From the NCBI GenBank assembly GCA_024637035.1, contig JAGXFW010000014.1, forward strand, positions 124,001 through 188,000: a stretch of DNA of 64,000 bases. Direction: 5' to 3'. This DNA comes from Actinomycetes bacterium (GTDB lineage Bacteria; Actinomycetota; Thermoleophilia; RBG-16-64-13). How positions within the stretch are numbered: position 1 is the stretch's first letter; each line of letters opens with the position of its first letter. The notes below the pieces were generated by a model. The model saw nothing but the letters and a program-made list of their open reading frames with translations. It was not told the DNA's origin and made no database searches. The translations under genes were made by a program, and so were the position numbers. Shown here one piece after another: positions 3,705 through 31,163 of this stretch.

Positions 3705-6269
3705 GTGAGCATAGGTTCGACGGCTGAGGGTTGGTACATCCTACGCGGGGAGACCCAGGCGGGTCCGTACAACTGGGAGCAGCTGCACGGATTCTGCCGG
3801 GAGGGCCACGTTGCATCCGACGACCTGGTGTGGCAGGCCGAGATGCCGGGGTGGCTGCCTGCTTCGTCCGTCCCTGGGCTGTTCCCGGCGGGCGCGGCGA
3901 CCACCGCCTCACAAACCGCGGCCGGCGCGCCTTCACAGGGCCATCCGACGACTCCGCGGACCCTCTCCGGCACCCCTGGCAAGAAGCGCGGCTGGGTGAT
4001 CCCGCTCGTCGCCGCCCTAGTGGCCGTCGTGGTGCTGGGCGGGGCAGTCGGCGGCTACTTCCTCCTGCGCGGCGGCGGGGACGGCGGCGACTTCGCCGGC
4101 GGCGGAGGCGGAAGCGGCGGCTCCGACCTAGGCGCGGCCTCCTACACCCCACCCACGCCGGCCGACCTCGTCGAGACGGAAGCCTGGGGCCGCGTACCCA
4201 TCAACCAGATGGGCGTGGTGCTCCTCGACGGTAAGGATCGGGGCGACGCGGACAAGCTGGCCGCCGAACTCGGCGGCACCGTCGTGGGCGAGCTGGAGTT
4301 CATCAACCTGTACCAGCTGCAGGTGCCCGCGACCTCCGAAGCGGAACTCACGGCCCTCATCGATCGAGTTGCGGTCATGGAGGGTGTGGAGTCCGCCTTC
4401 CCCAATCAGGAGACCTTCCGCGATGAGGAGATCTGGGGAGTGCGCTCCAGCCCCCTCGACGATCCCGTCTACGCCGGGGACAACGCCAAGCCCTACACCA
4501 TGATCGGCGTGCAGCGCGCCTGGGACCTCATCCGCGGCTCGGGTCGCGACATCTCTGCCGTGCAAGTGGGTGTGGTAGATGACGGCCTCTACAAGGGTCA
4601 GCAGGAGTTCGACGGCAAGAGCGCCATCGCAGGGGGCGAAGCCGGCGACGAACTCGGGGCGCCGACCAAGGACGACGCTGGGAATGACGATGTCTACGGC
4701 AGTCACGGCACGGCTGTCGCTGGGATCATCGCCGCCAACCCCGACAACGGCGGACAGACCGGTGTGGCCTCGGTTCTGGGCGACAAGCTGAAGGTGGTCA
4801 GCACGAATATCTGGGGACCGAAGTACGGTGTGAACACCCCCGTCGCACCCGACCCCAACGATCCCACCCAGCACACGTTCAGCGACGGCACGTTCAGCCT
4901 GGGAGATCTGCAGGCTTTGAAATACCAGGTCGAGCAAGGGTCGACGGTGATCAACTGTTCCTGGGGCAATTCGAATGCTCACCCCAGCGTCGCCGCCACA
5001 TACAAGAAGTTCTTCGAGAAGATGGCCCAAGAGAAGCCGGGCGTGATCTTCGTGTGCTCGGCCGGCAACGACGGTAAGGCTCTCGACGGGAAGAAGCGCT
5101 TCCCGAGCGGGCTGAACCTCCCGAACATGATAACGGTCGGCTGTCTCGAAAGCGACGGATCCAAGATCGACTATAGCAACACGATCGGCGAGGACTTCGA
5201 AGTGACTCTCGGAGCGCCTGGACACCGGGTCGTCTCTGGGGTCGACCCCAAGACGGGCGAGGTCTCGAACGAATGGGGCGGCACCAGCTTCGCCACGCCG
5301 CAGGTCACAGCGACCGCCGCGATGATGAAGTCCCTGAACCCCGAACTCACCGCTGCTCAGATCAAAGAGATCCTCACGCAGACAGCCGCCCCGGGTGTCA
5401 CTGACGACGAGAAACAGATGAGCGTGCCCTTCCCCCACGATGAGCTCGGAGCCGGCGTGTTGAGCACCGACTTCGCCATCGCGAAGGTGATCTACGATCT
5501 GAAGAACCCCAGCGCAGCGGGCAAACCCACCGATAGGGCGACCCTCGAGAAGTTCCTGGAAGAGATACAGAACCAAGGCGTGATCGACGCCGTCGCCGTC
5601 ACCACCGACGACCCCGACTCGTACGACGTGCGCGGAATCGTGAAAGCGCTCGGAGACAAGGGTGCCGACATCTCCATCACGCTGTCCGGCCAGGGCGCCA
5701 TCGGCGGCACGACCACGCAGAAGCTGGACGCTCCCGGCGAGGTCACCTGGGGAGTCACGGTAGCCGATGAATCGGCCACCATCACCGTGCGCCGCGCGGA
5801 CAACGGCGCCGCCAGCGTCATCACCATCGAGAACATCGATCTGAACGGAGCCTGGGCCGGCACCTTCACGATCACCGCGATCGAGATCCCCGATGAGGTG
5901 TACGAGTCGGCGCGCGCCGGCGAAGAGGAAGGTTGCGATCTCGCGATACTGGAGGCGTTGAAGGCGCTCGAAGGCCAGACCATGCCGATGACCATGGACA
6001 TCACGGCGGACGAAGGAGGCACTGGGCAGGCGACCGTGTTCCTCGACTCTTCGGGCCTCAACGAGGATGGCACCGCGGGTGACCCGATAACCGCCCCCAT
6101 CCAGTGGAGCAGGGGGAGCTTCAATATGGATATCTCGGCGGAGGGCGGTTCCGGTGCCTTCTCCGGGCGCCCGTCCAAACAGGGCGACACGTTGGTGCTC
6201 TCCGGGAGCTTCGTCTCGTCCAACGAAGGGATCACCATGCGCGGTGCCTGGACCGTGACCAAGCAGTAG
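3705..6269 (+). CDS. GYF_2-domain, membrane-anchored subtilisin-like (S8) serine protease
   Basis: 854 residues from GTG 3705 (AAGGAGG upstream). Order: an N-terminal GYF_2/DUF4339-like module (WYILRGETQAGPYNWEQL to WLPASSVPGLF, about 7-65), a Ser/Pro linker, one membrane segment (WVIPLVAALVAVVVLGGAVG, about 99-120), a Gly-rich stretch, a propeptide-like region, then a subtilase domain. The catalytic triad is Asp292 (VVDDG), His334 (GSHGTAVAG) and Ser528 (GGTSFATPQ). The about 250 C-terminal residues are beta-rich and unassigned. There is no signal peptide, so the GYF_2 part should be cytosolic and the protease outside. The following lgt-like gene starts 29 nt downstream. Confidence 0.88.
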   Translation: MSIGSTAEGWYILRGETQAGPYNWEQLHGFCREGHVASDDLVWQAEMPGWLPASSVPGLFPAGAATTASQTAAGAPSQGHPTTPRTLSGTPGKKRGWVIPLVAALVAVVVLGGAVGGYFLLRGGGDGGDFAGGGGGSGGSDLGAASYTPPTPADLVETEAWGRVPINQMGVVLLDGKDRGDADKLAAELGGTVVGELEFINLYQLQVPATSEAELTALIDRVAVMEGVESAFPNQETFRDEEIWGVRSSPLDDPVYAGDNAKPYTMIGVQRAWDLIRGSGRDISAVQVGVVDDGLYKGQQEFDGKSAIAGGEAGDELGAPTKDDAGNDDVYGSHGTAVAGIIAANPDNGGQTGVASVLGDKLKVVSTNIWGPKYGVNTPVAPDPNDPTQHTFSDGTFSLGDLQALKYQVEQGSTVINCSWGNSNAHPSVAATYKKFFEKMAQEKPGVIFVCSAGNDGKALDGKKRFPSGLNLPNMITVGCLESDGSKIDYSNTIGEDFEVTLGAPGHRVVSGVDPKTGEVSNEWGGTSFATPQVTATAAMMKSLNPELTAAQIKEILTQTAAPGVTDDEKQMSVPFPHDELGAGVLSTDFAIAKVIYDLKNPSAAGKPTDRATLEKFLEEIQNQGVIDAVAVTTDDPDSYDVRGIVKALGDKGADISITLSGQGAIGGTTTQKLDAPGEVTWGVTVADESATITVRRADNGAASVITIENIDLNGAWAGTFTITAIEIPDEVYESARAGEEEGCDLAILEALKALEGQTMPMTMDITADEGGTGQATVFLDSSGLNEDGTAGDPITAPIQWSRGSFNMDISAEGGSGAFSGRPSKQGDTLVLSGSFVSSNEGITMRGAWTVTKQ

Positions 6270-6297
6270 AGCCCGACGGACCGAGGAGGGCGGTCGG

Positions 6298-7203
6298 ATG
6301 CATCCGACCTTGGTGGACATCGAGATCGGCGGGTGGGCGCTCCATCTGAGCGCCTACTCGACGATGCTCGTACTAGCGGGGATCGTCGGCCTCACCGCGA
6401 CGACGTTGGTGGCCGGCCGTCTGGGCCTGCCCCGGCGCCGCGTGTTCGCCCTTTTCGCGGCGGTGTTGACCGCCGGAGTGGTGGGCGCCCGGCTGTTCCA
6501 CGCCGCCACCAACCTGCAGTTGTACGCCGCGGAGCCTGCCAGGCTCTGGTCCACCGGCGCCACGGGGTTCGCGCTCTACGGCGGTCTGGTGACCGGAGCG
6601 CTCACCGGAGTCGTGCTCGCCCGCGGCATGCGGCTGCCCGCGTGGCGACTGGCGGATGCCGCCGCTGTGGGCATGGGGCTCGGCATCGCGATCAACCGCG
6701 TGGGATGCTTCCTCCAGGGATGCTGCTACGGTCACCCCACCGAGCTGCCCTGGGGCGTGGTGTTCCCGCCCGGGAGCCCAGCCTGGGCGCGTCAGATGAT
6801 GGAGGGGGACCCGGGCGTGGGCGGCGACGGACTGCTCGCCAACCTGCTTGGCAGGGGAGCGGCGTTGACCAACCACCCAGTCCAGCCGACCCAGCTCTAC
6901 GAACTGCTCGCCGCGCTGGGCGCGGTCGGGCTGGTAGTCTTCCTGTTGCGTCGGAACGCCCGCGCGGGGGCCCCCTTTCTCGCCGCCGCGCTGTGGTTCA
7001 CCGCCTTCCGCATGGCGAACGCGCAACTCCGTTGGACGCCGACGACCCTCACCGCGCCGGCCTGGTTCTACCCGGCTTTCTACCTCGCGCTTCTCGCGCT
7101 GTTCGCCGGGCTGCTGGTCTGGCGCCTGAGTCGTGCGCCCGTGTGCCGGGAAGAGCAAGCACCGTCCGCGACAACCGCCGGCAGGCCCATAGCTTCGATG
7201 TGA
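6298..7203 (+). CDS. Prolipoprotein diacylglyceryl transferase (Lgt) family membrane protein
   Basis: Polytopic membrane protein of 301 residues with the Lgt architecture: short N-terminus, several hydrophobic helices, GARLFHAATNL, the central INRVGCFLQGCCYGHPTELPWG and HPVQPTQLYE. Canonical Lgt moves diacylglycerol onto lipobox Cys. This protein has the Cys-rich GCFLQGCCYG signature of the Lgt-like subgroup in place of the classic HGGLxG/GRxGNF motifs, so true lipoprotein transferase activity is uncertain. Preceded by GGAGGGCGGTCGG and only 28 nt from the protease, suggesting co-transcription. Confidence 0.85.
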   Translation: MHPTLVDIEIGGWALHLSAYSTMLVLAGIVGLTATTLVAGRLGLPRRRVFALFAAVLTAGVVGARLFHAATNLQLYAAEPARLWSTGATGFALYGGLVTGALTGVVLARGMRLPAWRLADAAAVGMGLGIAINRVGCFLQGCCYGHPTELPWGVVFPPGSPAWARQMMEGDPGVGGDGLLANLLGRGAALTNHPVQPTQLYELLAALGAVGLVVFLLRRNARAGAPFLAAALWFTAFRMANAQLRWTPTTLTAPAWFYPAFYLALLALFAGLLVWRLSRAPVCREEQAPSATTAGRPIASM

Positions 7204-8025: not shown

Positions 8026-8391
8026 CTAGCCGCTCTTCTTCGGGGCCTGTTTGGGCCCCTTCTTCGGCATACCTCTTGGAGGCTTCTTCGGAGCCGAATG
8101 GGCCACCGTCATGGCCTCTCTGGCCCACTCCCCCAGACGGGTCGGGTCCTCCAGAACGTCACCCGGCACCTCGTAGTAGGGCATGCGGCCGTACGATTCC
8201 GAGCCGGCCGCCTCGTAGGTGGCGCGAGTGGTGTCGTCCACCTTGAAGTAGAGGGACGCTCCCGAGATCAACGCGAACATCACTTCCTGATCGAACAGGC
8301 CCCATCCCCCGAACATCGAGCGGCTCGTGACCTCGCCGAACGGGCTCAATAGCTCCAAAGCGAAATCGTGGAATCCCTGGTCCTTAGCCAC
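8026..8391 (-). CDS. TfoX N-terminal-domain protein
   Basis: 121 residues from GTG 8391 with AGGAGG seven bases upstream. The body matches the TfoX N-terminal domain: FHDFALELLSPFGEVTSRSMFGGWGLF, then FALISGASLYFKVDD and GRMPYYEVPGDVLED. This domain was named for a competence regulator, but short stand-alone copies are common and have no settled function. The last 25 residues are Lys/Pro-rich (PKKPPRGMPKKGPKQAPKK), a basic tail that could bind nucleic acid. Likely co-transcribed with the dioxygenase gene. Confidence 0.85.
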   Translation of the reverse strand: MAKDQGFHDFALELLSPFGEVTSRSMFGGWGLFDQEVMFALISGASLYFKVDDTTRATYEAAGSESYGRMPYYEVPGDVLEDPTRLGEWAREAMTVAHSAPKKPPRGMPKKGPKQAPKKSG

Positions 8392-8595
8392 CGCACGACC
8401 TCCTGACGTGGTGATTCGGGCAAGACACTGACTATGGGTCTACCCGCTGTCTGCACGCGTACCCGCTTGCAGGTGTACCCGCGCGGGTGGTCTGAGACAC
8501 TCCCATCGGTCTCAAGACACCGCTGGGAGTAGGGCGTGCGCTAGGACGGTAGAACCCCCCGTGTAGCCATCCCCCGCGTCCTACGGAGGATCCCC

Positions 8596-9084
8596 ATGAA
8601 GCGCACTCGACCCGGCCCCGGCCAAGAATCGGTATGGGACTACCCTCGCCCACCACGTGTGGAGGCCACGCTACGTCACGTCGTGGTGATGCTCGGAGGC
8701 CGGGCCATCGCCGAGACCCGACGCGCCCTCCGCGTGCTCGAGACCAGTCATCCGCCTACGTACTACATCCATCTCGAAGACATCCACGCCGGCGCGTTGA
8801 CCTCCACGTCCGCGCGCACCATATGCGAGTACAAAGGGGTCGCTCACTACTTCGACGTGTCCCAGGGGGATCGGCGCGAAGAGGTCGCGGCGTGGCACTA
8901 TCCCGAGCCGCGTGCGGGCTATGAAGACCTCGCTGGTCACGTGGCCTTCTACCCAGGGCGCATGGATGCCTGCTACATCGACGGCGAACTCGTGAGCGCC
9001 CAGTCGGGCGGCTTCTACGCCGGCTGGATCACAGCGGATATCGTGGGCCCCTTCAAGGGCGACCCGGGCACCTCGGGGTGGTAG
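8596..9084 (+). CDS. DUF427 family protein
   Basis: 162-residue soluble protein of the DUF427 family. Recognisable segments are RHVVVMLGGRAIAETRRALRV, PPTYYIHLEDI, CEYKGVAHYFDV, AAWHYPEP and the end of the fold with GHVAFYPGRMDACYIDGE. The family has a compact beta fold and no proven activity. It begins 14 nt after a CGGAGGA site (8575-8581). The 200 bases upstream contain GC-rich inverted repeats (around 8490-8525) but no gene. Confidence 0.85.
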   Translation: MKRTRPGPGQESVWDYPRPPRVEATLRHVVVMLGGRAIAETRRALRVLETSHPPTYYIHLEDIHAGALTSTSARTICEYKGVAHYFDVSQGDRREEVAAWHYPEPRAGYEDLAGHVAFYPGRMDACYIDGELVSAQSGGFYAGWITADIVGPFKGDPGTSGW

Positions 9085-9092
9085 TGCGGCCT

Positions 9093-9860
9093 CTAGAGCA
9101 TGCCCGGTGGCGTCAGCCCGGCCGCATCGCCGACATCTGAGAGGCTGAAGCCCAGGGTCCCGACCGGATCCGCCATGAAGTCCCGATACAACCGATAGTG
9201 CCCGGTCTCCTCGTAGGCGGTCTCGCGCACACCGGAGCCGTCCAGCCCGAAGAGCTGAGCCCCGGGCAGCGCCATGAGGATGGGCGAGTGAGTCGCGATC
9301 AGGAACTGCGCGTGACCGTCCGCCGCGTAGCGGTGCAGCATCCTTGCCAACTCCAGCTGACTGGCCGGAGAGAGGGCGGCTTCCGGCTCGTCGAGGGCGT
9401 AGAGGCCCCTGATCGCATACCGCCCCTCGAAGAAGGTGAGCATGCCCTCACCGTGCGACTGGTTCAACAGGGTGCGTCCACCAAAGTACTTGAGTTGCCC
9501 TGGGTCGACGAGGGACACATCGTCAAGGAACTCGGCCCGTTGCCGGAACGACTCGGCATTGAAGAAACTGCCCGAGACCCGGCCGGATGTCCACTCGAGG
9601 TCGAGATACTCGTAGAGCGTGTTCTCGTATGGGTTCTTATGCGCGATGTGGCGCTTGGATGGTGTCCACACGGGGATATCGGCACGCTGCACGACCGCTT
9701 CCAGAAGCGTGGACTTACCCGAACCGTTCTCCCCCACGAACATCGTGATGGGCGACTCGAAGCGAAGCTCGAGCCGTTCGCGAAGCCAACCCAGATCGAA
9801 GGGATAGCAGTCGCGTCGCGGGAAGTCCTCCGCGCGTACGATGACCCGGTTCACCCACAT
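9093..9860 (-). CDS. AAA-family ATPase (ABC/SMC-like, single domain)
   Basis: 255-residue P-loop ATPase of the AAA_21/AAA_23 type found in OLD-like and SMC-like proteins. Walker A is FVGENGSGKSTLLEA (about residue 44), the signature-like region is NQSHGEGMLTFF, Walker B is GLYALDEPEAALSP, and the H-loop is FLIATHSPILMAL. It has no coiled-coil arms and no TOPRIM nuclease, so the partner and process are unknown. Start ATG 9860 follows GGAGG closely. It stands alone, divergent from the NapH-like gene. Confidence 0.88.
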   Translation of the reverse strand: MWVNRVIVRAEDFPRRDCYPFDLGWLRERLELRFESPITMFVGENGSGKSTLLEAVVQRADIPVWTPSKRHIAHKNPYENTLYEYLDLEWTSGRVSGSFFNAESFRQRAEFLDDVSLVDPGQLKYFGGRTLLNQSHGEGMLTFFEGRYAIRGLYALDEPEAALSPASQLELARMLHRYAADGHAQFLIATHSPILMALPGAQLFGLDGSGVRETAYEETGHYRLYRDFMADPVGTLGFSLSDVGDAAGLTPPGML

Positions 9861-9986
9861 GGCGCCTCCAACTCCGCTCGGCGAGCACGCGCACCAGCCT
9901 ACTCCCTCGCACAGGAACAGGGCAAGCAACGAAGAGGGCAAGCCACGAAGGCCATCACAGACTTCTAACACGACCAGGTGCACTTC

Positions 9987-10002
9987 CCTCACACGTTGTT
10001 CC
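9987..10002. repeat. 16-bp repeat, copy 2
   Basis: Second exact copy of CCTCACACGTTGTTCC (first at 1913-1928). Here TTGTTC followed 18 bases later by TATGTG could form a weak promoter for the gene at 10046. Confidence 0.35.
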
Positions 10003-10045
10003 TAGCCTGTCTCCTACCGTATGTGCTCGCCGGAGGAGGCAGGTC

Positions 10046-11389
10046 GTGAAGCTAGGTGCAGGTGCAAGACCGTGGAAATGGGTGCGCAGAGCGGCCCAGG
10101 CGACGGTGGTAGTGATCATCGGATGGCTCGGATATCGCCACACGTTGCTGGGGGGCGGGGCGGGTGGATCCGCGCCACTCGACGCTTTCTGCCCGTTCGG
10201 CGCCATCGAGACGCTCCCCAGCCTGCTCACCACCGGCACGTTCCTGAAGAAGACCGCCATCTCCGGTTTCATCGTCCTCGGGGCGGTCGTGGGCGCCACG
10301 ATGGTCGGGCGCGCATCGTTCTGCGGGTGGCTCTGCCCGCTCGGAACGGTGGTCGAGTGGGTGCACCGAGCGGCCCGCTTCCTCGCCAGGGTGGCGGGTG
10401 GGATCCCCGGCGCTGGGCGCCTGGGCAAGGCCGCCTCTCGGTGGGGAGCACGACGCGCCCGTCGCGGGGCGTGGCTTCGGTCCGAGCGTGGCCGAGCGTG
10501 GGACCGGCGCCTTCGCTACCTGCGCTACGGCGTCCTCGCGCTCATCCTGGCTACCACCTTCACCGGCGGCCGTCTGGTCTTCGAAGCCTACGACCCGTTC
10601 AAGGCGGTGTTCCACTTCCAGATCGAGACGGCCCTCACCCTCGGGGTCCTCGTGCTGCTGCTCGTCACAAGCCTGCTCGTCGAGCGGTTCTGGTGTCGCT
10701 ACTTGTGCCCGCTCGGAGCGGTCGTCTCCCTTGGGAGTCGCCTGTCACCAGCGGGCGTCACTCGGGATAGCGGGGCCTGCACCGACTGCGGCCGCTGCGA
10801 CGCGGCCTGCGGCATGGGCATCGATGTGTCACACGTGGAACGGGTCACGAGCGGTCAGTGCAGCCTGTGCGGCGACTGCACGGACGCATGCCCTGTTGAG
10901 GGGGCTCTGCACACCACTTGGTCTGCGCCCGCCGGCGGCGGTCACGCCGCGCGCCGTCTTCTCGGCGCCGCACCCGATCGGATCCGTCGCGGTTTCGCAT
11001 CGGCCGGATCGGGCGCACGGCCGGCCATGGCGGTGATCCTCTTCGCGGCGGTCATCGCAGGATCCATGGCGACGGGCGCATGGCAGACACGAGCCGAGGC
11101 GGGCGGCGGAGCGGGAGCCGGGTCAGAAGCGGTCGTCGGCTCAGACCACGAAGGCGAATCGCTGCCCACCGACGGCAGCGCCCAGGCGACAGAGATCAAG
11201 GGACGCATGACCGTGCGAGAAGTGGCAGATGCCTTCCACGCCGATCCCGTCGAGGTACTCGCTGCCCTCGGAGCACCGCCGGACACGGATCAGGGACTCA
11301 GCGTCAAAGCAGTGGCGGGCACGTACGGGGGGTCAGTGGACGATCTTCGGGCGTGGTTGGGATCCGGCGTGGTGCCGCCTGCCCCCTGA
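10046..11389 (+). CDS. NapH/MauN-type 4Fe-4S polyferredoxin membrane protein
   Basis: 447 residues from GTG 10046 (GGAGGAGG upstream). It has several membrane helices interleaved with the paired FCPFGAIE, CGWLCPLGTVVEWV and CRYLCPLGAVVSL motifs typical of NapH-type electron-transfer proteins. Two ferredoxin clusters follow: CTDCGRCDAACGMGIDV and CSLCGDCTDACPVEG (about residues 246-290). A further hydrophobic segment (MAVILFAAVIAGSMATGAWQ) leads to a C-terminal tail resembling small DNA/protein-binding modules (MTVREVADAFHADPVEVLAAL). It probably passes electrons across or along the membrane. No catalytic subunit is adjacent, so the acceptor is unknown. Confidence 0.88.
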   Translation: MKLGAGARPWKWVRRAAQATVVVIIGWLGYRHTLLGGGAGGSAPLDAFCPFGAIETLPSLLTTGTFLKKTAISGFIVLGAVVGATMVGRASFCGWLCPLGTVVEWVHRAARFLARVAGGIPGAGRLGKAASRWGARRARRGAWLRSERGRAWDRRLRYLRYGVLALILATTFTGGRLVFEAYDPFKAVFHFQIETALTLGVLVLLLVTSLLVERFWCRYLCPLGAVVSLGSRLSPAGVTRDSGACTDCGRCDAACGMGIDVSHVERVTSGQCSLCGDCTDACPVEGALHTTWSAPAGGGHAARRLLGAAPDRIRRGFASAGSGARPAMAVILFAAVIAGSMATGAWQTRAEAGGGAGAGSEAVVGSDHEGESLPTDGSAQATEIKGRMTVREVADAFHADPVEVLAALGAPPDTDQGLSVKAVAGTYGGSVDDLRAWLGSGVVPPAP

Positions 11390-11476
11390 TCTCGCCCCGA
11401 TGCTGATCCGGGCCTCACGCGTGCCGTCCGTGGTGGCACCGCCCACATTTTTTTTCCGCCAACTGTAATACCCGGC

Positions 11477-11526
11477 CCCTTTCTCGGTTGTACGAATAGG
11501 ACGCACCACAACGAACCGAGAAAGGG
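11477..11526 (+). promoter_or_regulatory. Hairpin occluding the ribosome binding site of the LPFTG gene
   Basis: CCCTTTCTCGGTT (11477-11489) pairs perfectly over 13 bases with AACCGAGAAAGGG (11514-11526), around a 24-nt loop. The right arm contains most of the Shine-Dalgarno sequence GGGAGG (11524-11529) of the gene starting at 11536. If the leader is transcribed, the stem would hide the ribosome binding site; as DNA it could also be an operator. Confidence 0.6.
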
Positions 11527-11535
11527 AGGCCCACG

Positions 11536-12183
11536 ATGACAGCGAAGCCGAACACCACGAGAGGCGCGACAGCGGTCCTGACACTGGCCACGATGCTGAT
11601 CCTCCTCATGGCGATGGCCGCACCGGCCATGGCGCTGAGCGGAGTCCATCTCCCGGCGCTGCCCGACATGAACGCCGTCCAAGTGAACCCCGAGATCATC
11701 CAGCACCTGCAGCCCGTCGCCCCCGCGGCGCCCCAGTTGGACCCGAGCCTGATCCCGGGCCTCGAACCGATCGTGCCCCTGGTCCCCCCCGGCGATATCG
11801 AACTGCTCCCCGTTGACCCGATCATCCCGCCTCTGGTCCCTGCGGACCCGCCTGCAGTCCCCGTTGATCCGGTGGACCCGCCTGCGGCTCCTGCGGATCC
11901 GGTGGACCCGCCCGCAGTCCCCGTGGATCCCGAGGACCCGCCTGCGGCTCCTGCGGATCCGGTGGACCCGCCCGCCGACGATCCCGCGGACGAACCGACT
12001 GACGAACCAGCCGACCAACCGACTGACGAACCGGCCGACCAACCGGCCGACCAGCCCGCCGACGAGCCCATGCTCCCCTTCACCGGCGGCGACAACACCC
12101 CGTACCTCATCGCCGGCGCGGCCATGGCCCTCTTCGGACTGAGCGCCATCCGCCGCAGGCGCGACGAGTCCGACCGCGACTGA
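11536..12183 (+). CDS. LPXTG-type (LPFTG) cell-wall-anchored Pro/Asp-rich repeat protein
   Basis: 215 residues, exported and sortase-anchored. An N-terminal signal peptide (hydrophobic LTLATMLILLMAMAAPAMA, cleavage near residue 34) is followed by a short unique part. Then come Pro-rich repeats: DPPAVPVDPVDPPAAPADPV blocks, then acidic DEPADQPTDEPADQP repeats. The sorting signal is LPFTG (180-184), a hydrophobic helix and the basic tail RRRRDESDRD. The repeats extend the chain through the wall and carry no enzymatic domain. The sortase gene follows immediately, which makes it the natural substrate. Confidence 0.92.
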   Translation: MTAKPNTTRGATAVLTLATMLILLMAMAAPAMALSGVHLPALPDMNAVQVNPEIIQHLQPVAPAAPQLDPSLIPGLEPIVPLVPPGDIELLPVDPIIPPLVPADPPAVPVDPVDPPAAPADPVDPPAVPVDPEDPPAAPADPVDPPADDPADEPTDEPADQPTDEPADQPADQPADEPMLPFTGGDNTPYLIAGAAMALFGLSAIRRRRDESDRD

Positions 12184-12202
12184 CACAACACCCCGAGGTC
12201 CT

Positions 12203-12235
12203 GTGAAGGGGGCGCCAACCCGGTGCCCCTTTCAC
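12203..12235 (+). terminator. Stem-loop between LPFTG gene and sortase
   Basis: GTGAAGGGGGCGCC and GGTGCCCCTTTCAC form a 14-bp stem with G-U pairs and the loop AACCC. There is no T-run after it, so it is more likely a partial terminator or mRNA-stabilising hairpin than a strong stop. Confidence 0.5.
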
Positions 12236-12318
12236 GCCCCCAGCAGAACCGCGAACCATCCCGAGAACGACGAGAAGACACGGAAGCCGCACACGGAAGA
12301 GCACCAAGGGAGGCGACC

Positions 12319-13041
12319 ATGACCACAACCCCGACAGCACTCGGATGGCCGAAAGAGCCCGTCGACCTCGCCGGGCAGTCCCCGTCGCTGGAACGGTCGG
12401 TCAGCACTGAAGACGCGTTGCGTGTGGACCTGGCCCGCAGGCAGAAGGGGCAGAAGAGGCGGAAGCGCCAGAGACGGCACGACCTGATGCTGGCCGGCAT
12501 CATGGTACTCGCCGGCATCGCCGTGATGTTCTACCCGAAGCTCACCGACGTGCGCTACGAGTTCGCCCAGTGGCGCCTCTCCCTCGCCGCTATCGCCGCG
12601 CCGGTCTTGTCGACGACGGGAGACAGCGCCGGCGGCGGGGTCGCGCTCCCCGAGGGCGTCGTGGCCCGGCTGGAGATCCCGGCGATCGGCCTGCAAGCCT
12701 ACGTGGTCGAGGGAACCCAGAAATCCCAACTCACGAAGGGACCCGGTCACTACCCCGGTACGCCGCTCCCCGGCGAGAGCGGCAACGTTGCCATCGCGGG
12801 ACACCGCACCATGTACGGGCACGTGTTCCACGACCTGCACCTGCTCGAGGCGGGCGACGTGATCCGCACGGCGACCAGCGCCACGACCGCCACCTACCGA
12901 GTAGTCGAAATCCGCGTCGTGAGCCCCCGCGACACCCACGTGGCGGCCGCCACCGATGACAGCCGTCTCACCCTCACCACGTGCAACCCCATAGGCAGCG
13001 CGGCCCAAAGGTTGGTTGTCGTCGCCGAGCTCGACGACTAG
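12319..13041 (+). CDS. Class E sortase
   Basis: Transpeptidase that links LPXTG/LAXTG-type proteins to the peptidoglycan. 240 residues from ATG 12319, selected for its GGGAGG site. An N-terminal basic cytosolic stretch (RRQKGQKRRKRQRRH) and one anchor helix precede the catalytic domain. Catalytic residues visible are His162 (GHRTMYGHVF), Cys222 (TLTTCNP) and Arg231 (QRLVVVAEL). Lone class E enzymes usually act as housekeeping sortases in high-GC actinobacteria. Neighbours are its likely substrate upstream and a membrane-bound sigma factor 1 nt downstream. Confidence 0.93.
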   Translation: MTTTPTALGWPKEPVDLAGQSPSLERSVSTEDALRVDLARRQKGQKRRKRQRRHDLMLAGIMVLAGIAVMFYPKLTDVRYEFAQWRLSLAAIAAPVLSTTGDSAGGGVALPEGVVARLEIPAIGLQAYVVEGTQKSQLTKGPGHYPGTPLPGESGNVAIAGHRTMYGHVFHDLHLLEAGDVIRTATSATTATYRVVEIRVVSPRDTHVAAATDDSRLTLTTCNPIGSAAQRLVVVAELDD

Positions 13042-13042
13042 G

Positions 13043-14770
13043 ATGGAACGCATGGGGGCATTCGCCGACACAGCCGCAGCCACCGCCGACGCCGCGCTGG
13101 TCGCAGCCGCGCGCGACGGGCAGCAGTCCGCGTTCGCCGAACTCTTCGAACGCTACCAACAGCGCATCTACAACTACGCGTACGGCATCGCCGGCAACCA
13201 CGAGGACGCCGGCGACATCGCCCAGGACGCGTTCGTTCGCGTCTTCCAGGCGCTGCCTCGGCTCACAGGAGAGCTGAACTTCTCCGCCTACCTGTACCGG
13301 ACGGCTCATAACACGGCCATCGACGCCGTGAAGCACCGCACCCGATTCGTGGCGCCCGACCTGCTCGATCTGCAGATGGAACCCGCCCTGCGGGCCGACC
13401 CCGAGCGGGTCACCCTCCTCCGGGAGCAGCAAGAGCAGACGTGGCAGGCCACCTTCGAACTCAGCGACAACCACCGCGCCATCCTCGCCCTCCGCGAACT
13501 GCACGACCTCTCCTACCAGGAGATCGCGGACGTCATGGGGATGAAGCGGGCGACAGTAGGCGCACTGCTCTCGCGGGCGCGCCTGAAGTTCAAGGAGGCG
13601 TTCAGGATGTCCTCCATCGACACCGAGAACCTGGTGAAGGAGTGCCGCGACATGCTGCCGCTCCTCTCGGCCTACCTCGACGACGAACTCGACGCGCCGG
13701 AGCGTGACCACGTAGGAACCCACCTGGAGGCGTGCGCATTCTGCGGCCTCGCGCTGGAAGAGATGACCGAGTCCTCGCGCAGCTACCGGGCACTGGCGCC
13801 GATCGCACTACCATTGGCCTTCCGCGATTCTGCCTGGGCGAGCGTGCGCGAACGGCTGACCACCGACGCCGCGAGCCGGGCGACCGCCGCCGCCGGCGCT
13901 GCCGACGCCACCGGCGCCCCCGAATCTGCCGACGCCTGGGTATCCGGGGGGGCTCTCCCCCCGGCGAACGGCGGAGCCCCGGAGGCACCACGGGGAAGGG
14001 TATCCAGAGTGGTGGCCGGTGTCCTGGTCACCGCCGCCGTGGTGTTCTTCGGAGTGTCCATGGCCGGAGGCATCGCCGCCTACCGAGCCTACCAGGCCTC
14101 CACCACCACGACGGTGGCCGCTTCGACGGTCAACGTCGCCGACGGCCAGAGCGATGTCGGGGTACTCGCGTCCGATGACGACAGATCCACGTCCACGGTC
14201 GCACCGGGTTCGAGCGAGCCGACTGTGATCAGAACGTCCACCACCGACCCGTCCACCACTGACCCACCGGCCACCCGGGCGCCGACAACCCGACCTTCGA
14301 CCACCCGCACGACGGCCGCCCTCTCAACGACGCCGGTGACATCGGCGGCCACCACGACCTCAGTCACCCGCACCATCGGCACCGTGACGAGCACCACCAG
14401 GCCGACGCTCACCCTCGACACCACGCCGCCGCCGACCCCGGCCCTCATCTCACCCAGCAATGGTGCCGTCATCGAGAGTAGGACGCTGAAGCTGGTGTGG
14501 CAGGCGGTCAAGGATCCGAGCGGCGTGCTCTACCGGGTCGAGGTGCAACGGTTCGACGGCAAGACCTACGTGCCGGCCCAGACCTACACCGACCTCACGG
14601 TCACCAGCGTCGGACGCACCATGGCGGCTTCCGCCGAGCGCTGGCGCGTGTCGGCCGTCGACGGACGGGGCAACTGGAGCACCCCGAGTCGGTGGTGGAG
14701 CGTCTCCCGGCAGCTCGTCATCGTAGTGCCGATGACCATGTTGACCACGACCACCTTCATGCTCTATTGA
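13043..14770 (+). CDS. Membrane-tethered ECF sigma factor fused to zinc-finger, TM helix and extracellular domain
   Basis: 575 residues. Sigma region 2 (about 22-92: FAELFERYQQRIYNYAYGIA, DIAQDAFVRVFQALPRL) and region 4 (about 133-185: HDLSYQEIADVMGMKRATVG) are complete. An anti-sigma-like zinc finger follows, with H227-x3-C231-x2-C234 after CRDMLPLLSAYLDDELDAPE. Then come a linker, one membrane helix (RVVAGVLVTAAVVFFGVSMA, about 322-345), a Thr/Ser-rich stretch of about 100 residues and a fibronectin-III-like domain (PALISPSNGAVIESRTLKLVW to RWRVSAVDGRGNWS). ECF groups with long membrane-spanning extensions are known in actinobacteria. The layout suggests an envelope sensor holding its own sigma domain at the membrane. 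ATG 13052 is an alternative start. Confidence 0.9.
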   Translation: MERMGAFADTAAATADAALVAAARDGQQSAFAELFERYQQRIYNYAYGIAGNHEDAGDIAQDAFVRVFQALPRLTGELNFSAYLYRTAHNTAIDAVKHRTRFVAPDLLDLQMEPALRADPERVTLLREQQEQTWQATFELSDNHRAILALRELHDLSYQEIADVMGMKRATVGALLSRARLKFKEAFRMSSIDTENLVKECRDMLPLLSAYLDDELDAPERDHVGTHLEACAFCGLALEEMTESSRSYRALAPIALPLAFRDSAWASVRERLTTDAASRATAAAGAADATGAPESADAWVSGGALPPANGGAPEAPRGRVSRVVAGVLVTAAVVFFGVSMAGGIAAYRAYQASTTTTVAASTVNVADGQSDVGVLASDDDRSTSTVAPGSSEPTVIRTSTTDPSTTDPPATRAPTTRPSTTRTTAALSTTPVTSAATTTSVTRTIGTVTSTTRPTLTLDTTPPPTPALISPSNGAVIESRTLKLVWQAVKDPSGVLYRVEVQRFDGKTYVPAQTYTDLTVTSVGRTMAASAERWRVSAVDGRGNWSTPSRWWSVSRQLVIVVPMTMLTTTTFMLY

Positions 14771-29879: not shown

Positions 29880-31061
29880 TCAGCTGCGGCCTTCCGCATC
29901 TCGCACCCGGTCCGCGAGGGCAACGAGCAGAGCGTCCCGCTGATTCTCAACCGGCTGCTCCGGGTATATGCCGTCTCGCGCAACCCCCGCGGTCATGGCG
30001 ACCAGAGACATGAGACGGGGACCCGCCGCGTACCGCCGCGTCCTCCCGGCGCCGAGAGCCCGCAAGAGACCGGCTGCATCCATGCGGGCAAGGTCGTTCG
30101 TTGCCGTGGCCACGGAGACGTCGGCCAGATCGCGGTAGTACCGGTTTCCAACCTCCCGACCCATGAAGGCGTCGTACAGGGCATTCGCCAGCCGTGGATC
30201 GGCGCGGAGTTCGTGACGCACGAGTTCCTCGAGCACCAACCACAGATGCCGCTCGGTAGACATGCGCAGCGAGAGTGCCTCCACCTGCAGAGTCTGAGCC
30301 CTCACGTGGGCCGCCACGAACGGGGTCACGTCGATCCCGGGATCCCACTCGTTCCCGAGGCAGCCGAACGCAGCGTAGTAGTCGTCTCGGTGCCTCCCCC
30401 ACCACTCCTCCAGACTCGTGAACTCAGGACCCCTGAAACCGCCGCGGTGCATCATCAACGATGCGAGGATGCGGGCCGTGCGCCCGTTCCCGTCGGAGAA
30501 CGGGTGGATACCGGCCAGCCGCACGTGGATCAACGACGCCGCAACGGGCACGGGGACCTCCCCGGCCGACTGCGCCCATTCCGCCAGATCTGATACCAGG
30601 TCCGGAACCGACTCCGGAGGCGGCGGCAGATAGACCGCCCGTTTGGCGGTCGCGTCCACCAACCGGTTCTGACCGGTGCGAACCCTCCCGGCGCCGTGAG
30701 AATAGTCGCCGGCGAGGACGCGATAGTGGATGCCCAGAATGAGCTCCGACTGCCAGCGGAAATCGGGGTCGTCGGCACGCCGCAGGACAAAGTTCATCGC
30801 GTCGCGATATCCCTCGACAAGTCCGGCATCCTCGGCCGATACCGACCGCGGGCGATCACCCGCAAGTATGCGCCTCACCTCGTCCACGGTGACCGCGACG
30901 CCTTCCATGGACGTCGAGGCGGCCACCGCCTCGGCCTCGAGTTCCCGACGGGTCCGCCCCAACCAGACCCGCAGACGGGGCTGCGCGTCCAATCTCGCCC
31001 TCAACTCGTCCAAACGGACCAAATCGGCCCGGATGCAATCTGTCAAGTGAAAGGAGTACAT
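29880..31061 (-). CDS. Fic-domain AMP-transferase with N-terminal inhibitory motif
   Basis: 393 residues. The Fic core motif HPFSDGNGRTAR (catalytic His186) is intact. Upstream is the class-II inhibitory helix motif STSMEG (49-54, blocking Glu53). The order is DUF4172-like N-terminus, Fic domain, then a winged-helix C-terminus (VGNRYYRDLADVSVATATNDLARMDAAGLL) that can bind DNA. Such proteins transfer AMP to target proteins and are kept off by the Glu. No separate antitoxin is needed. A strong palindrome lies just upstream of its start, suggesting self-regulation. Confidence 0.92.
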   Translation of the reverse strand: MYSFHLTDCIRADLVRLDELRARLDAQPRLRVWLGRTRRELEAEAVAASTSMEGVAVTVDEVRRILAGDRPRSVSAEDAGLVEGYRDAMNFVLRRADDPDFRWQSELILGIHYRVLAGDYSHGAGRVRTGQNRLVDATAKRAVYLPPPPESVPDLVSDLAEWAQSAGEVPVPVAASLIHVRLAGIHPFSDGNGRTARILASLMMHRGGFRGPEFTSLEEWWGRHRDDYYAAFGCLGNEWDPGIDVTPFVAAHVRAQTLQVEALSLRMSTERHLWLVLEELVRHELRADPRLANALYDAFMGREVGNRYYRDLADVSVATATNDLARMDAAGLLRALGAGRTRRYAAGPRLMSLVAMTAGVARDGIYPEQPVENQRDALLVALADRVRDAEGRS

Positions 31062-31073
31062 CGAATATCTCCT

Positions 31074-31097
31074 AATCTCCTATGAGTTTAGGAGATT
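31074..31097 (-). promoter_or_regulatory. Palindrome upstream of the fic gene
   Basis: AATCTCCT (31074-31081) and AGGAGATT (31090-31097) are perfect 8-bp inverted arms around an 8-base spacer, 12 bp from the fic start. A third ATCTCCTA copy (31067-31074) adjoins it. Fits binding by the winged-helix end of the Fic protein. Confidence 0.6.
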
Positions 31098-31163
31098 ATA
31101 CGCCATGAGGTCGCGATCTCCTGCGCGGCGGGCTCGCGTGGCGTGTGTGTACCGGTGCTCCCG

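Follow-up and report, generated by a model that had tools for sequence, protein, structure and literature searches.

A perfect 13-bp hairpin overlapping the Shine-Dalgarno site of a sortase-substrate gene: possibly a fixed leader stem-loop

RNA thermometers such as ROSE and fourU hold the Shine-Dalgarno (SD) sequence within a hairpin. The 5' stem-loops of ompA and aprE are further parallels, and the stability of the ompA and ermC mRNAs is described as requiring a strong, ribosome-bound SD (PMC7509114, in the passages drawn on here). Hairpins overlapping the 16S-binding site do not qualify as modules in the standby model (PMC3936740, in the part cited here). The leaders of wall-protein genes are also places where c-di-GMP riboswitches and small RNAs act (PMC4933901 and PMC4214639, as far as the excerpts used go).

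The leader of a gene for an LPFTG surface protein was analysed within a window, that is the whole stretch of DNA of 64,000 nucleotides, and compared with these systems. Like the leaders of Escherichia coli ompA and Bacillus subtilis aprE, it is short and carries a strong stem-loop close to its presumed 5' end, with a strong SD directly after the stem and an exported protein as product. The comparison, one of layout, also revealed a difference, as the stem base overlaps the SD here, whereas ribosome binding aids stability there (PMC7509114, same passages). Of the traits of a stabiliser, the stable stem and the strong SD are present, and the predicted accessibility of the SD is lowered by the overlap. 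A partly closed SD speaks against an ompA-type stabiliser, given the need of ompA and ermC for a ribosome-bound SD (PMC7509114, as excerpted). The locus also resembles the SD-sequestering attenuators and standby-site hairpins, with part of the SD closed at the base of the stem. The standby model, as worded in the cited part of PMC3936740, is not directly applicable, because the hairpin overlaps the 16S-binding site. The coordinates of the features are summarized in Table 1.

Table 1. Features of the leader, the region before it and the genes after it (positions in the window)
Feature	Position	Strand	Basis or remark
Weak terminator-like hairpin (5 pairs) and run of 8 T	11430-11455	+	After ferredoxin-type gene
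TGTAAT, candidate -10 box	11464-11469	+	By eye, in a local AT-rich stretch
GGC, able to pair with 11529-11531 past a 2-nt bulge	11474-11476	+	Folds starting at or before 11474
Left (5') arm of 13-bp stem, CCCTTTCTCGGTT	11477-11489	+	Sequence, inverted-repeat search
Loop, 24 nt, internal pairing predicted weak	11490-11513	+	Folding
Right (3') arm of 13-bp stem, AACCGAGAAAGGG	11514-11526	+	Sequence, inverted-repeat search
GGGAGG SD site, first three bases inside stem	11524-11529	+	Sequence
Sortase-substrate gene, 215 aa	11536-12183	+	LPFTG, hydrophobic stretch and RRRR tail; Pro/Asp-rich repeats
Sortase	12319-13041	+	Pfam PF04203, E 9.7e-36
ECF sigma factor with zf-HC2 and membrane segment (by eye)	13052-14770	+	Domain matches

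The initial annotation had proposed a perfect 13-bp hairpin ahead of the LPFTG gene that takes in part of GGGAGG, and both statements were confirmed. The arms are perfectly complementary and the 13 bp contain no mismatch, bulge or G-U pair. The SD is split by the stem, with GGG paired within the right arm and AGG immediately outside it, and 9 nt separate the stem end from the ATG. The repeat, its position and its overlap with the SD are direct observations. The leader was folded by minimum free energy (MFE) and by base-pair probabilities. The MFE of 11477-11535 was -22.4 kcal/mol (z -3.94), and none of 200 shuffles was equally good; the predicted stability, too, is shown. For RNA starting at 11474 or earlier, the stem reached 16 bp in the folds, with a 2-nt bulge inside it and most of the SD paired; the bulge was 11526-11527 in the MFE structure, and the pairing probabilities also permit 11527-11528. 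An intrinsic terminator was ruled out, because neither arm is followed by a T-run on either strand.

The rarity of the 13-bp repeat depends on the reference, being common window-wide and rare directly upstream of a start. Perfect inverted repeats of 13 bp or more (loop up to 60) were present in 12 of 60 dinucleotide-shuffled whole windows, so the repeat by itself is unremarkable in 64 kb. This frequency, and the fact that no conserved leader was found among the relatives searched, would suit a functionless inverted repeat that arose by chance. The local comparison showed the opposite. When the 62-nt leader itself was shuffled, a stem of more than 10 bp arose in 0 of 3000 sequences, and 13 bp was reached in 0 of 3960 shuffled window leaders of the same length. 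With this observed local non-randomness a chance origin appears improbable. Among 334 distinct other leaders from the examined loci the longest perfect stem was 11 bp, seen in two cases whose 3' arms extend to -26 and -25. Within the window, the hairpin leader ranked first of 66 by z (-4.5) and eighth by raw folding energy. These leader statistics are background rates only, because they rest on simple automatic gene calls with some wrong starts, such as that of the sigma factor gene, which was placed too far downstream. A dispersed repeat was also ruled out, as the exact arm pair (10 bp each) occurs a single time in the genome.

The effect of the stem on the accessibility of the SD was predicted by folding. 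Opening of GGAGG in RNA with the whole left arm cost 8.4-10.2 kcal/mol when the fold ended at 11580 and 7.4-11.1 kcal/mol when it ended at 11590. For RNA starting inside or after the left arm the corresponding costs were 3.4-4.5 and 4.9-6.6 kcal/mol, the choice of 3' end altering the values by as much as about 2.6 kcal/mol. Shuffling of the left arm in RNA starting at 11470 gave a mean opening cost of 5.3 kcal/mol (sd 1.9) compared to 7.6 kcal/mol for the native arm, and 26 of 200 shuffles were at least as closed as the native. This control indicates that the predicted block due to the hairpin is real but moderate, the site being partly closed even without it. The suggestion that the hairpin hides the ribosome binding site is thus upheld as far as the opening cost rises with the left arm, but it is too strong for a site that stays moderately closed after the arm is shuffled. 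The duplex of the SD with the anti-SD tail, taken as a generic tail which may differ from that of the genome's own 16S, was -9.8 to -11.5 kcal/mol.

The temperature series bears on a thermometer, which would melt in the physiological range and free the SD. The leader is like ROSE and fourU in pairing the SD in a hairpin, here partially, and its AGG half outside the stem opened gradually in folds from 11475 and 11477, with A27 unpaired at 0.30-0.35 at 37 C and at 0.64-0.74 at 60 C. It is unlike them in having 13 bp free of mismatches and bulges and no predicted melting in the physiological range. In the same folds the left arm was more than 0.97 paired at 70 C and still 0.77-0.87 paired at 90 C, and the GG of GGAGG within the stem was at most 0.12 unpaired at 70 C. 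The 13-bp stem is therefore predicted to be too stable for temperature sensing; the thermometer put forward in the initial annotation was rejected on this series and is extremely unlikely.

A second proposal was that of a protein- or ligand-controlled switch. Here a protein, small RNA or ligand would open or lock the hairpin and so set the output of wall protein. The SD at the stem base and the 24-nt loop, which offers a binding surface, would suit such control, and there is precedent in wall-protein leaders (PMC4933901 and PMC4214639, in the excerpts used). The leader is like the c-di-GMP riboswitches before wall-protein genes in standing ahead of a sortase substrate. It differs from them in that no Rfam family reached its threshold and in its length, which would be about 60 nt for an RNA beginning close to the left arm and is probably too short for the known aptamers. 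The Rfam covariance models gave no gathering-level match across the window, and on 11300-11700 the only matches were two sub-threshold microRNA models (18.3 bits against 53 and 16.9 against 69). No homologous leader with a conserved loop or arms was found in the relatives searched. Nothing in these searches points to the proposal, and a trans-controlled switch is quite improbable. A lineage-specific form, with the SD hairpin opened by a protein or small RNA so that wall protein is made only with an active sortase or membrane-tethered sigma system, is very improbable.

The place of the hairpin in an RNA depends on the transcription start. The terminator-like site after the ferredoxin-type gene (hairpin itself at 11430-11442) is weak, with 1 such site found compared to 0.8 expected in shuffles, and a new transcription unit may begin downstream of it. 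The stretch 11445-11469 has a G+C content of 0.32 in a window of 66% G+C, and 0.07% of the 25-mers of the window are equally low. This AT-rich stretch and the T-run, just upstream of the left arm, fit a promoter starting the RNA near the arm. The TGTAAT, if it serves as the -10 box, would place the 5' end near 11475-11477, about at the left arm. The promoter search found no sigma-70 consensus promoter upstream of the LPFTG gene. The published motif of the ECF52 factor SCO4117 (PMC5826349, as given in the part consulted) matches 11485-11510, from which transcription would start in or beside the right arm. An ECF52-type promoter at this place was discounted and the match carries no weight, because the window has 155 occurrences of the motif compared to 157 expected. 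It is a reminder that the left arm may lie outside the transcript.

The main rival to a leader stem-loop is a DNA operator. On this reading a transcription factor would bind the repeat as DNA, in the promoter or the early transcribed part, and the hairpin in the RNA would be incidental. A perfect Watson-Crick repeat without G-U pairs suits DNA as much as RNA, a sigma factor gene lies downstream, and another operator-like inverted repeat, accompanied by a partial third copy, covers the SD of the Fic gene in the same window. A single 13-nt arm with at most one mismatch was found at three further sites of the genome, compared to none for the reversed-pattern control. Two of these sites lie within ORF calls, and the third is placed immediately ahead of what looks by eye like the start of a gene. 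Against the operator, a partner core (TTCTCGG or TCTCGGT) is absent from the 70 bases ahead of each of the three, and paired 7-nt cores occur at three places, as do those of the reversed control. The 16-nt arm with at most three mismatches gave 17 forward and 7 reverse sites compared to 12 and 6 for the control, and two 13-bp arms spaced 24 bp apart (centres 37 bp apart) would be an unusual layout for an operator. On these counts a regulon operator is not supported though possible, an operator serving this one gene is possible too, and the operator reading as a whole is rather unlikely.

The Fic gene (29880-31061, minus strand) carries the inverted repeat TAATCTCCTA/TAGGAGATTA at 31062-31098, and the copies, including the partial third one (GGAGATA), lie over its SD. 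The C-terminus of the Fic-domain protein weakly matches the transcriptional-regulator domain PF22168, below the cut-off. Judged from the sequence, the repeat looks like an autoregulatory operator, which is more plausible than an RNA hairpin. The case indicates that an SD-covering inverted repeat can resemble an RNA hairpin and yet more plausibly be an operator.

The genes downstream were assigned by domain matches, which bore out the order of LPFTG surface protein, sortase and membrane sigma factor given in the initial annotation. The N-terminus of the LPFTG protein resembles a signal peptide by eye, and the protein scored 14.6 bits with TIGR01167 in the protein scan (cut-off 15.9) and 17.8 bits in the genome search. 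The best NCBIfam model for the sortase was that of class E, NF033747, with 120 bits, below the cut-off of 160. The sigma factor gene has an alternative start at the in-frame ATG at 13043, and the outer part of its protein is Thr/Pro-rich. A sigma, zf-HC2 and membrane architecture has been described for the actinobacterial groups ECF48, ECF52 and ECF53 (PMC5826349 and PMC8999054, in the parts used), and the protein of the window resembles these in domain layout. The LPFTG, sortase and sigma genes would lie on one shared mRNA.

Among the genomes searched, the hairpin is lineage-specific. The inner 9 bp of both arms together were found in 1 of 399 class genomes, namely the source genome. Homologous leaders were sought through the sortase in 61 genomes, with 249 class genomes added at E <= 1e-28, through the ferredoxin-type neighbour in 18 genomes and through the LPXTG model in at least 18. 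The neighbourhoods of the examined loci revealed no LPFTG homologue whose leader was comparable, and the homologue search of the genome contigs gave one distant Chloroflexi match. Among the matches listed, the other sortases of the family and class showed at most about 50% identity over the catalytic part. The exception is a remnant in a genome of the same genus (G001), which retains about the last 50 sortase codons; these are 82% identical, and the matched frame contains one stop. The sigma gene of G001 is present without its sigma domains. When 11000-14770 was searched against this genome at the DNA level, with 40 of 180 first-look candidates scored, neither the LPFTG gene nor its leader gave a match.

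Alignment of G001 (locus L034, about 5860-7104) with 8100-14770 of the window revealed that the stretch from the gene at 8026-8391, which we take to be TfoX-like, to most of the sortase is missing. A further deletion removed the sigma and zinc-finger domains in frame and left the membrane and Thr-rich remnant. The corresponding sortase regions of two genomes of the same genus share a long hairpin (1918-1950 of L038 and 1971-2015 of L036), 13 bp perfect and 19 bp at 95%, in which the outer stem differs with the pairing kept. In L038 it is placed between converging ORFs, and it is probably a terminator.

Sortase substrates were also sought by their tail pattern in 98 of 105 loci, the seven left out covering the locus of the window itself. 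Four other substrate-like genes (L012, L071, L075 and L086) were obtained. Their leaders were folded at the first in-frame starts and then again at likelier starts, and over six start choices the longest perfect stem was 3-7 bp. The hairpin is thus not shown to be general for sortase-substrate genes, as these four lack a comparable leader. Three of the genes (L071, L075 and L086) encode small exported-looking proteins with a C-terminal FPFTG, hydrophobic stretch and Arg-rich tail, which are perhaps the substrates of other sortases in this family.

The hairpin is tentatively read, with a probability somewhat short of even, as a fixed, non-switching stem-loop of the 5' leader which dampens translation and/or protects the 5' end of the mRNA. 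It would be transcribed and folded in the cell, where it would dampen translation or stabilise the mRNA without being opened by a trans-acting factor. The leader hairpin would lower the access of the 30S subunit to the start of the wall-protein gene, and, with its 5' end paired, the mRNA may be less open to 5'-end-dependent decay. This reading is favoured because the perfect stem (z -3.9 to -4.5) abuts the SD, the product of the gene begins with a good signal peptide, and the length of the stem was unmatched in the 3000 shuffles of its own leader. It is also favoured by the opening cost of GGAGG, 7.4-11.1 kcal/mol with the full left arm compared to 3.4-6.6 kcal/mol in truncated RNA, and by the temperature insensitivity predicted for the stem. 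The lack of a consensus promoter in the search, the rank of only eighth by raw energy and the moderate effect of shuffling the left arm count against the fixed leader stem-loop.

The hairpin is real, though of an ordinary kind. In a 64-kb window of high G+C, a long inverted repeat becomes rare only once its position is considered, and the useful outcome is mostly negative, in that a perfect 13-bp stem is not thermometer-like in prediction. If functional, it would add another case of a leader hairpin that tunes a sortase substrate, and the general picture would be unchanged.
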